This document shows positions 20,476-23,397 of a DNA stretch of 64,000 nt, piece by piece. A program made the position numbers and the translations under genes. Within the stretch, counting starts at the first letter, position 1; every line of letters starts with the position of its first letter. This DNA comes from Methylobacterium sp. J-067 (GTDB lineage Bacteria > Pseudomonadota > Alphaproteobacteria > Rhizobiales > Beijerinckiaceae), in the NCBI RefSeq assembly GCF_022829465.1, contig NZ_JAKSXZ010000058.1, positions 1-64,000 on the forward strand. Reading direction: 5' to 3'. The notes under the pieces were generated by a model. It ran no database searches. It was not told the origin of the DNA and saw nothing but the letters and a program-made list of their open reading frames with translations.

Positions 20476-21141
20476 GTGAAGATTCTGCTGGTTGAGGACG
20501 ATGCGGCGCTGGCGGCGGAGATCGACCGCGCCTTGCGCGCGGAGAACTTCGTCCTCGACCGGGCGGCGACGGGCGAGGACGCCCGCCATCTCGGGGAGAC
20601 GGAGGGCTACGACGCCTGCATCCTCGATCTCGGTCTGCCGCGTGGCGACGGCGTCTCCGTCCTGAATGCGTGGCGGGCGGCGGGGCGGACGCTCCCCGTG
20701 CTGGTGCTCACGGCGCGCGACGGGTGGAGCGATAAGGTCGCCGCGTTCAAGGCGGGCGCCGACGATTACCTTGTGAAACCGGTGCGGGTGGAGGAACTGG
20801 TGATCCGCCTGCGCGCCCTGGTGCGCCGGAGCCAGGGGCACGGTGCGAGCCGCCTCAGTTGCGGCCCCCTGAGCTTCGATCCCGGCCTCGGCGCCTTCGA
20901 GCGGGACGGGCTGCCCCTGCGCCTCACCGGCCTCGAATGGCGGGTCCTGTCCTGCCTGATGCTCAACCGGGATTCGGTGGTGCCGCGCACCTACCTGATC
21001 GAGCGCGTGTACGACGGCGATGCCGAGGTCGATTCGAATTCGGTGGAGGTGATCGTCGCGCGGCTGCGCAAGAAGATCGCCCCGGCGCGGATCGAGGCGA
21101 TCCGCGGCCACGGCTACCGCCTCACGGCCGAGGCGGCCTGA
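20476..21141 (+). CDS. OmpR-family response regulator
   Basis: A 221-residue DNA-binding response regulator, starting at GTG 20476. The receiver has the acidic pair VEDD (7-9), the phospho-acceptor Asp51 in ILDLGLPRGDG, Thr in VLVLTARDG and the conserved Lys in DDYLVKPV. The C-terminal winged helix (about 125-220) has the OmpR pattern (LTGLEWRVLSCLMLN, then VEVIVARLRKKI). It overlaps the kinase start by 1 base and so forms a pair with it. Likely target: its own locus, including the divergent PepSY gene. Confidence 0.95.
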   Translation: MKILLVEDDAALAAEIDRALRAENFVLDRAATGEDARHLGETEGYDACILDLGLPRGDGVSVLNAWRAAGRTLPVLVLTARDGWSDKVAAFKAGADDYLVKPVRVEELVIRLRALVRRSQGHGASRLSCGPLSFDPGLGAFERDGLPLRLTGLEWRVLSCLMLNRDSVVPRTYLIERVYDGDAEVDSNSVEVIVARLRKKIAPARIEAIRGHGYRLTAEAA

Positions 21142-22397
21142 TGCACCTGCGCTTCGGCTCCCTGCGCACGCGCCTCGTCGCCGCCGCCCTCGCCGCCGTG
21201 ACCGTGGCGCTGGTCGTCGCTGGCCTCGCCATCGGCGTGATCCTCACCCGCTTCCTGCGCGCGCAGATCGACGGGCGGCTCGATGCGCAGATCACGGCAC
21301 TGCGCGCCGGCCTGGAGGCGGGGACGCTGACCGCCCGCCCGGAGCGGTTCGACGGCCCGCCCTTCGACCGGCCGGGCGGCTGGATCTGGGAGGTGCGCCG
21401 GGGCGACGAACTCGTCCGCTCGGACTCCTTCGATGAGCGCCGCCCGCCCGCGAACCTGATGCTGCGCGAACTCGACCTGCCGGGGGAGCCGCCTGCGCGG
21501 ATCTTCGTCGGCGCGCCGCAGGTGGCGCTCTACGGCCCCCTGCGCGACGTGCTGGTAAGCCTCGCCGTGGCGCTCGGCGGCCTCGGCCTCGTCCTCGCCT
21601 TCGGGGCGGTGGCCCAGGTGCGCCTCGGCCTCGCCCCCCTCCGGCGCCTGCGGGACCATCTCGCCGCTGTCCGCAACGGCCGGCAGGCGCGCATCCCCTC
21701 CCGCCAACCGGAGGAGGTCCGCCCCCTCGTCACCGAGTTGAACGCCCTGCTCGACGAGAATGAGCGCAACCTCGACCGCGCCCGGGGCCATGTCGCCAAC
21801 CTCGCCCACGCCCTCAAAACGCCGCTCGCGACCCTCGCCCTGGCCCTGCGCGACCCCGCCCGCGATCCCGAGGGGATTCTCGCTGCGCAGGTGGACGACA
21901 TGGACCGGCGGGTGCGCCACCACCTGCGCCGCGCCCGGGCCGCCGCCCTCGCGGGACCGGGCCGGGCGCGCACTCCCCTGCTGCCGCGCCTGGCGGACCT
22001 GCGGTCGGTGCTGGTGCGCATCCACGCGGACAAGGCGCCGGAGATCACGCTCGCCGTGCCGGACGGCTTCGCCCTGGCCTGCGAGGAGCAGGATTGCGAC
22101 GAGATGCTGGGCAACCTCCTCGACAACGCCTGCCGGTGGTGCGCCGGACGCGTTGCCGTCACCGCGCAGCGCGTCGGGGCGCAGATCGAGATCCGCATCG
22201 AGGATGACGGCCCCGGCCTGACGCCGGAGGCGGCGACGGCGGTGATGGCGCGCGGCCGGCGCCTGGACGAGGCCGTCCCCGGCGACGGGTTCGGCCTGCC
22301 GATCACCCTCGAACTGGCGGAATTGTACGGCGGCGCGCTGAACCTCGGGCGCGCGGCGAGCGGGGGCCTGCGCGCGACCCTCACCCTGCCGGGCTAA
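21141..22397 (+). CDS. Sensor histidine kinase, partner of the OmpR-type regulator
   Basis: A 418-residue inner-membrane kinase. Transmembrane helices at about 12-34 and 138-160 enclose a periplasmic sensor of about 100 residues rich in Arg, Asp and Pro, as in PhoQ- or FeuQ-like kinases. HAMP-like segment about 160-210; phospho-acceptor His223 in ANLAHALKTPLATL; N box LGNLLDNACRW; G1 box EDDGPGL; G2 box GDGFGLPITLELAE. The order and length are complete. Its stop is 1 base from the stop of the convergent sigma-factor gene. Confidence 0.93.
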   Translation: MHLRFGSLRTRLVAAALAAVTVALVVAGLAIGVILTRFLRAQIDGRLDAQITALRAGLEAGTLTARPERFDGPPFDRPGGWIWEVRRGDELVRSDSFDERRPPANLMLRELDLPGEPPARIFVGAPQVALYGPLRDVLVSLAVALGGLGLVLAFGAVAQVRLGLAPLRRLRDHLAAVRNGRQARIPSRQPEEVRPLVTELNALLDENERNLDRARGHVANLAHALKTPLATLALALRDPARDPEGILAAQVDDMDRRVRHHLRRARAAALAGPGRARTPLLPRLADLRSVLVRIHADKAPEITLAVPDGFALACEEQDCDEMLGNLLDNACRWCAGRVAVTAQRVGAQIEIRIEDDGPGLTPEAATAVMARGRRLDEAVPGDGFGLPITLELAELYGGALNLGRAASGGLRATLTLPG

Positions 22398-22398
22398 A

Positions 22399-23136
22399 TC
22401 AGACGGAGGCGTCGCTCGTCGTGCCGAGCGCCGAGAGGGTGACGCCGTCGCTGCCGATGTCGGCGCCGCCATAGCCGAGCATCCGGGCGAGCTGGGCCCG
22501 CGCCCGCCAGACCCGGCTCTTGGCCGTGCCGATCTGGCATTCCATCACGGCAGCCGCCTCCTCGTAGCTGAGGTTCTCGATGCCCACGAGGACGAGGGCC
22601 TCGCGCATCACCGGGGCGAGGCGGTCGAGGGCCGCGCGCACGTCCTGCAGGTCGAGATGGCCGCCCTGTTCGGGGGCGGCGGCGAGGCGGCCGGCATAAT
22701 CGCCATCGCTGTCGGGCACCTCGCGGGTCTGGCGGCGGTGCCGGCTGTAGAAGACGTTCCGCAGGATCGTGAACAGCCACGCTTCGAGGTTCGTGCCCGG
22801 CGCGAAGCCGCCACGCCCGCGCCACGCGCGCAGGAGCGCGTCCTGCACGAGGTCGTCGGCGGCGGCCGGCTCACGGGCCAGCGACAGGGCGAACCGGCGC
22901 AGCGCCGGCACGCTCGCGAGCAGTCCCGTGCGGAACGTGTCCTCATCCGCCGCGCCCAGGCGCCCGGCCTGCCCCAGCGCCTTGTCCAGGCGCGCGAGCA
23001 GGTCCGCGAACCCGTCGGGCTCGCTCGGCGCATCCGCGTAGGCGCCCTGCAGGAGCACGCCCAGATGCCGGCGCACGGAATCGGGAAGAAAGGGGGCGGC
23101 GTCGCCGTCCAGGAGAGAGACGTCGGATTCGGTCAT
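22399..23136 (-). CDS. EcfG-type ECF sigma factor with NepR-like N-terminal domain
   Basis: A 245-residue protein, longer than the usual 170-200 for EcfG. Residues about 19-54 (VRRHLGVLLQGAYAD ... DGFADLLARLDKA) follow the pattern of NepR anti-sigma factors: 'IG..LR..Y.....P..f..LL..Ld'. Sigma region 2 is about 70-135 (DDLVQDALLRAWRG, LEAWLFTILRNVFYSRHRR) and region 4 about 165-220 (LSYEEAAAVMECQIGTAKSR). The region 4 motif is typical of the EcfG general-stress group. In the alphaproteobacterial stress response PhyR sequesters NepR to free EcfG; a covalently linked NepR segment could give autoinhibition. No GGAAC-N16/17-GTT promoter was found upstream, and no phyR is in the window. Confidence 0.88.
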   Translation of the reverse strand: MTESDVSLLDGDAAPFLPDSVRRHLGVLLQGAYADAPSEPDGFADLLARLDKALGQAGRLGAADEDTFRTGLLASVPALRRFALSLAREPAAADDLVQDALLRAWRGRGGFAPGTNLEAWLFTILRNVFYSRHRRQTREVPDSDGDYAGRLAAAPEQGGHLDLQDVRAALDRLAPVMREALVLVGIENLSYEEAAAVMECQIGTAKSRVWRARAQLARMLGYGGADIGSDGVTLSALGTTSDASV

Positions 23137-23320: not shown

Positions 23321-23397
23321 TGGCGCGGGCGACGGGGCTCGAACCCGCGACCTCCGGCGTGACAGGCCGGCACTCTAACCAACTGAGCTACGCCCGC
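23321..23397 (-). tRNA. tRNA-Asp (anticodon GTC)
   Basis: Complete cloverleaf, 77 bases with encoded CCA (23323-23321). On the minus strand the acceptor GCGGGCG pairs with CGCCCGC; D arm GCTC-AGTTGGTTA-GAGT; anticodon arm CCGGC-CTGTCAC-GCCGG gives GTC (aspartate); T arm GCGGG-TTCGAGC-CCCGT. Discriminator G, as required for tRNA-Asp. Confidence 0.97.

Follow-up and report, generated by a model that had tools for sequence, protein, structure and literature searches.

An EcfG sigma factor paralogue of Methylobacterium sp. J-067 with a NepR-derived N-terminal extension

The ecfG locus and its NepR-derived extension

The window, that is, the whole stretch of 64,000 nucleotides from Methylobacterium sp. 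J-067 that was analysed, contains an ecfG gene at 22399-23136 on the reverse strand, with an ATG start at 23136 and a stop codon at 22399-22401; the coordinates and strand assigned to this open reading frame in the earlier note are correct. Its 245-aa product (hereafter the window protein, with its clade of relatives referred to as window-type) was annotated from the reading frame and Pfam matches as an EcfG paralogue carrying an N-terminal NepR-like extension. The core of the protein (residues 67-222) is an EcfG-type ECF sigma factor, including sigma region 2 at residues 76-138 (22723-22911, reverse strand; Sigma70_r2, 60.7 bits), sigma region 4 at residues 164-216 (22489-22647, reverse strand; Sigma70_r4_2, 42.6 bits) and a match to the Pfam domain PhyR_sigma2 (44.3 bits). 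The two sigma regions and the best match in the PDB assign the protein to the EcfG/ECF15 group. The closest protein in the PDB by sequence is EcfG/RpoE of Bartonella quintana (5uxx, E 2.4e-44 over residues 67-220), which according to the title of the entry was co-crystallized with NepR.

The ecfG gene is convergent with a two-component pair at 20476-22397 on the forward strand, whose function was read from sequence and which is considered here as context only. The response regulator of this pair is encoded at 20476-21141, and the histidine kinase gene ends at 22397, one base from the ecfG stop codon. A tRNA-Asp gene predicted by ARAGORN upstream of ecfG (23321-23397, reverse strand) also lies outside the system. 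Exact matches to the promoter pattern GGAAC-N16/17-cGTT occur three times in the window against 2.26 expected, and an EcfG-type promoter for ecfG itself was rejected because none of the three is located upstream of the gene.

No in-frame start codon was found between residues 27 and 76 of the window protein, and hence a complete unfused sigma factor cannot begin there. Codon-position GC contents are similar in the extension (0.85/0.47/0.88) and the core (0.78/0.51/0.92). Judging from the reading frame, both parts can be translated as a single protein.

In the general stress response of Alphaproteobacteria, free NepR acts as the anti-sigma factor. The NepR pattern that the earlier note had recognized ahead of the EcfG-type core is indeed present, as H24-L-G-V-L-L-Q-G-A-Y33-...-P40-D-G-F43-A-D-L-L-A-R-L50-D51, and the NepR-derived module covers about residues 18-57 (22966-23085, reverse strand), as supported by Pfam PF18557, by comparison of the clade profile with the NepR profile and by a NepR HMM. 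PF18557 matched the whole window protein at residues 24-53 with 14.8 bits (E 0.022) and residues 1-70 alone with 17.4 bits (E 0.0034). Since both scores are below the curated cut-off of 25.7 bits, the single sequence is only suggestive, and we refer to the extension as NepR-derived rather than as a NepR.

For the NepR HMM, each of 26 genomes of the genus contributed one free NepR, in every case encoded no more than 1.5 kb from a PhyR gene. For comparison, 138 EcfG loci were picked by likeness to a fused protein from named contigs and from genomes of the genus, the own genome among them; by reading of the upstream residues, 114 of them (107 distinct sequences) were labelled as having an extension and 24 as having none. 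Scores of at least 10 bits were obtained for 83 of the 114 fused extensions, including that of the window protein (15.3 bits), and the other 31 scored below 10 bits. This level was reached by none of 2280 shuffled extensions (top score 8.1), a control that is independent of the fused/unfused label, by none of 16 stretches upstream of unfused EcfGs and by none of the 138 sigma cores. The window-clade profile aligned to the free-NepR profile with an hhalign probability of 97.6% and a score of 54.8, compared to 21.0 for the best of 100 column shuffles. The Pfam NepR model at E 0.01 or better recognized 34 of 78 aligned fused proteins, the window protein being outside those 34, and a PDB search with the window-clade extension profile returned no NepR chains (best E 1.1). 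We consider this negative search to be outweighed by the HMM and profile-profile results, so that on balance of the sequence comparisons the extension is NepR-derived, which upholds the assignment made in the earlier note by the kind of profile search that the note itself had asked for. The opposite view, in which the extension is not NepR and reflects chance likeness or a misplaced start codon, could draw on the sub-threshold Pfam score of the window protein alone and on the PDB search, but is highly improbable given that the HMM and profile-profile scores, far above those of their shuffled controls, speak strongly against chance likeness and that an internal start is absent between residues 27 and 76.

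Conservation within the module is uneven. Residues L25, L29, Y33, F43, L46 and L50 are invariant in all 17 window-type rows (14 distinct), and free NepRs have a large hydrophobic residue in each of the six columns (I/L, L, Y, F, L and L/M). In contrast, the α1 arginine, which is present in 26 of 26 free NepRs and in 21 of 21 extensions of the widespread C3 type (see below), was found in one of the 17 window-type rows; in the window protein, its place is taken by Q30. The QQPxPDR loop is nearly invariant in free NepRs and degraded in the fusions, with one glutamine and one proline column being gaps in the window protein; the free-NepR signature of the genus, composed of the α1 arginine and this loop, is thus not preserved in it. 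As judged by the alignment, the window-type extension has retained the hydrophobic framework of NepR and lost much of the polar part.

Selection was assessed by the Nei-Gojobori method; for each gene type, dN/dS was pooled over the pairs formed by one and the same set of six genomes, so that the pairs are not independent. In the window-type proteins dN/dS equals 0.40 in the module versus 0.12 in sigma2 and 0.08 in sigma4; in the C3 type it equals 0.19 in the module and 0.01 in the cores. The nepR gene at the phyR locus of the same genomes has a dN/dS of 0.15, at a dS of about 1. By these estimates the module is under purifying selection, with constraint relaxed in the window-type paralogue. 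The start region and the linker between the module and the sigma core (residues 58-66; 22939-22965, reverse strand) are free to vary, as seen in a pairwise codon comparison with four relatives and, for the linker, in the alignment.

AlphaFold2 models were obtained for the window protein (78 sequences) and for L165, the widespread paralogue from the own genome (77 sequences), and both contain the module helices at fair to good confidence. In the window protein, helix α1 is predicted at residues 19-34 (23035-23082, reverse strand; mean pLDDT 92 at residues 21-30) and helix α2 at residues 42-57 (22966-23013, reverse strand; mean pLDDT 84 at residues 41-50 and 80 at 51-60). As to the intramolecular complex suggested in the earlier note, the low pTM values (0.47 for the window protein and 0.45 for L165) leave the sigma2-sigma4 arrangement unfixed and give no confident closed complex. 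Over the whole chain, the window-protein model deviates from NepR-bound 5uxx by an rmsd of 16.4 Å (Foldseek) and the L165 model by 18.2 Å over 147 residues (Z 12.3, VIA-align); the closed form is therefore not predicted in either model, which we do not count against docking. Sigma2 alone superposes on 5uxx_C (residues 62-145, 84 aligned, rmsd 2.1, Z 11.9). Compared to free NepR, the window module shares the two-helix build, here predicted, and the six hydrophobic residues, and differs by its fusion to a sigma factor in addition to the lost arginine, the degraded loop and the Pfam score.

Paralogues and origin of the fusion

Described in the earlier note without a precedent, the architecture had in fact been published before: the EcfG proteins of M. 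extorquens AM1 (EcfG1-EcfG6) have a NepR-like N-terminal extension of ~55 residues (Francez-Charlot et al. 2016, PMC4814048), and the EcfGs described for AM1 in the text of that paper are all extension-bearing. Like these proteins, the window protein has the extension in frame with an EcfG core, is encoded away from the phyR locus and has no EcfG-type promoter upstream, which places it in the NepR-EcfG fusion class of Methylobacteriaceae. It represents another paralogue in another genome and adds one member to a class published for Methylobacterium since 2016. Sigma and anti-sigma parts also share one chain in IutY (ECF243) and some ECF36 proteins. As described in PMC8999054, these are membrane-bound, with IutY freed by proteolysis and the ECF36 extensions containing transmembrane helices, whereas the window extension is short and of the NepR type.

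The own genome encodes five fused EcfGs (on C145, which is the window contig, C3, C114, C82 and C138) and one unfused nepR-ecfG pair (C69). As expected of a genome with an EcfG/ECF15 sigma factor, it also has phyR and nepR, both on contig C58; the domain matches, to PhyR at C58:336698 (80.2 bits) and to NepR at C58:335931 (57.6 bits), are on opposite strands and 663 bases apart. The 21 members of the C3 type that were fetched, each from a different genome, group in a single clade (SH-aLRT 98). Each of the remaining five of the 26 genomes has a row of similar identity and coverage, though this counts for less, as that identity is also attained by other paralogues. Taken together, these matches suggest that the C3 type is present in every one of the 26 genus genomes searched. 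According to the comparison given in PMC4814048, EcfG1 alone is conserved across the full set of Methylobacterium species considered there, and the other EcfGs are shared only between very close species. The C3 type is therefore probably EcfG1, while the window protein, which belongs to a different clade, is an accessory paralogue with no proven one-to-one counterpart in AM1. Among the sequences searched, its nearest relative is L027 from a metagenome bin, with 87% identity.

All 16 unfused EcfG loci that were retrieved for the own genus have nepR next to ecfG. The pair of the own genome (G000:C69:619068-619786; L003, L012) stands beside the fused paralogues, and such pairs were read in 16 genus genomes. 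This operon has the same order as the window protein, with the NepR part first and EcfG second, and differs from it in consisting of two genes in different frames rather than one chain. Of the 39 distinct places that were looked at family-wide, 29 encode NepR in an ORF of its own at the locus, four have neither arrangement and six are fused, as called by eye (one in the own genus and five in other genera).

The fusions observed beyond the window genus are L281, L288, L289 and L291 (g32) and L261 (g36). The five other-genera fusions obtained 17.4, 14.1, 10.5, 8.4 and 2.6 bits with the NepR HMM, the last value, that of L289, being within the shuffle range. They may refine the published distribution, with the proviso that the other genera may share the same NCBI family. 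A candidate fusion in Paracoccus/Rhodobacteraceae, drawn from tblastn rows that begin at residue 1-20 (L053, L059, L083 and L084), was rejected because nepR has its own ORF at these loci.

In a quick tree built from 88 chosen rows, one clade (SH-aLRT 95.5) unites 53 of the 54 fused rows, four of which come from g32. The exception is L261, which may be an independent fusion; as a single origin was not rejected by the one-clade test (AU p 0.48), a second fusion event (L261, G098) is not claimed. A larger quick tree of 131 rows needs two fused/unfused changes owing to the long branch of L103, from a bin labelled as Acidobacteria. Node support on both trees is SH-aLRT without bootstrap. Given that the fusion repeats the operon order and that nepR2 and ecfG1 of Sphingopyxis overlap by 4 bp (PMC7083833), stop loss or a frameshift at the junction would be a plausible route to the fused gene.

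Possible roles of the fused module

The role of the EcfG extension was stated to be 'currently not known' in PMC4814048, and among open-licence PMC papers we found no later title or abstract that resolves it. The two-hybrid assays reported in that study detected NepR binding by truncated EcfG1 and, weakly, by truncated EcfG5, but by no full-length form; for EcfG1, binding by the truncated sigma factor only was seen in vitro as well. Such truncated-only binding fits an extension that sits where NepR sits. The block of NepR binding is thus published for the relative EcfG1 and may, by analogy, extend to the window paralogue.

Our preferred reading, to which we give somewhat less than an even chance, is that an ancient operon-type fusion followed by duplication left a NepR piece that acts in cis on its own sigma factor as a shield and a light brake. 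A nepR-ecfG pair of the operon type would have been fused long ago, with gene duplication later multiplying the fused copy. The two NepR helices would dock, at least some of the time, on their own sigma2/sigma4 at the free-NepR site. The docked module would first of all bar free NepR and might lightly damp the sigma factor; the RNA polymerase core could still win the site, because the module has lost polar residues that are kept in free NepRs. The NepR homology, the purifying selection, the six invariant hydrophobic residues and the two AlphaFold2 helices are consistent with this cis module, as are the frequent adjacency of nepR to unfused ecfG and the grouping of nearly all fused rows in one clade. 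On the other side, AlphaFold2 gave no confident arrangement, and loss of the α1 arginine together with degradation of the QQPxPDR loop may render docking too weak to matter. Moreover, the in vivo pull-down with NepR described in PMC4814048 recovered both full-length and 14-residue-shorter EcfG1, with the module present in each, which speaks against a tight shield.

We consider it rather unlikely that the fused NepR functions in cis both to keep free NepR off the sigma factor and to pass control directly to PhyR~P, giving a two-protein switch beside the three-protein one. If true, this would account for the PhyR dependence of an EcfG paralogue for which NepR binding was not detected. EcfG2 of M. 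extorquens would be a case in point: NepR binding was not found for it, yet it 'should be controlled by PhyR' through a mechanism that the Discussion of PMC4814048 leaves unidentified. A module acting in cis would account for this control and would make these proteins short, NepR-type auto-inhibited or shielded ECF sigma factors.

The earlier note suggested a self-silenced sigma factor that responds directly to PhyR-type proteins. In its strict form, the cis NepR would fully silence the sigma factor until phosphorylated PhyR captures the extension, giving a two-protein switch independent of free NepR. This model agrees with the NepR origin of the module, as NepR binds PhyR in this system, and with the expected PhyR control of EcfG2; furthermore, two M. 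extorquens NepR paralogues bind PhyR, EcfG binding being seen for neither in PMC4814048. However, both EcfG1 isoforms, full-length and minus 14 residues, complemented the sextuple mutant, and EcfG2 was termed 'an apparently constitutively active' EcfG in the same study. Strong self-silencing fits poorly with these observations; the altered arginine position and loop of the window type also count against it, and no closed AlphaFold2 model was obtained. We regard this switch model as unlikely. The interpretation in the earlier note is supported in part, as far as the NepR origin of the module is concerned.

At the other extreme, the extension could be a relic of the fusion that today hardly does more than serve as a translated leader and persists for lack of another start site. 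The elevated dN/dS of the window-type module relative to sigma2 and sigma4, the 31 of 114 fused extensions below 10 bits and the freely varying start and linker regions point in this direction, but a dN/dS below 1 and six hydrophobic positions unchanged in 17 of 17 rows do not. Retention of the extension in 114 of 138 EcfGs, including highly divergent paralogues, in a set drawn by likeness to the fused protein, likewise argues for more than a vestige, and we consider this explanation improbable, to about the same degree as full silencing.

Less probable still, and in our view quite unlikely, is that the extension mainly binds PhyR~P and damps the response by negative feedback, with its own sigma core not being controlled. 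M. extorquens provides a precedent, since over-expression of one of its two PhyR-binding NepR paralogues made the strain more stress-sensitive (PMC4814048). Nevertheless, the window-type module no longer has the residues that the free NepRs of the genus retain, and a fused core would be unnecessary for such a sponge. The window paralogue, in which the framework is kept and polar residues are lost, can naturally be compared with the widespread paralogue, whose module is better preserved.

Other NepR-bearing genes in the genus

Several other genes with NepR segments were noted. A NepR-receiver protein (L255:291-929, reverse strand, corresponding to G000:C39:202690-203328; also L250, L251, L252, L253 and L259) has an N-terminal NepR segment before a response-regulator receiver, scoring 18.9 bits in L255 and 25.9 bits in L250 (cut-off 25.7). 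With a query of 170 residues, begun inside the first NepR helix, it was matched over almost the full query length in all 26 genus genomes, in 22 of them at no less than 61% identity and in four at 43-45%. This protein could couple a receiver input to PhyR or EcfG.

A NepR tail was also observed in a hybrid kinase of PAS-HisKA-HATPase-REC-REC architecture (L254:625-3924, forward strand, corresponding to G000:C3:31124-34423; also L245-L249). The tail at residues 1066-1099 scored 23.0 bits, below the cut-off, and 28.5 bits in the genome search. It was read after the receiver in six loci, and a NepR match in an open frame of about 800-1270 residues is present in at least 11 of the 26 genomes. Neither the NepR-receiver protein nor the NepR-tailed kinase occurs in any title or abstract start found among open-licence papers, and NepR fusions to other signalling proteins of the genus are possibly less known than the EcfG fusion.

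Just downstream of the nearest window-type ecfG, a convergent NepR match was found in at least five of six genomes (L107-L109, L111, L112, L256 and L257); the two such NepRs that were read are of the '(M/L)YDPVIDEA' type. In the own genome, the NepR of this type (L007, C95) is on another contig, and the two-component pair occupies the place at the window locus instead. A free-standing NepR-like gene at G000:C102:41270-41368 (L005, L258) scored 28.3 bits and is 50% identical to residues 9-58 of the window protein, the match running past its stop codon.
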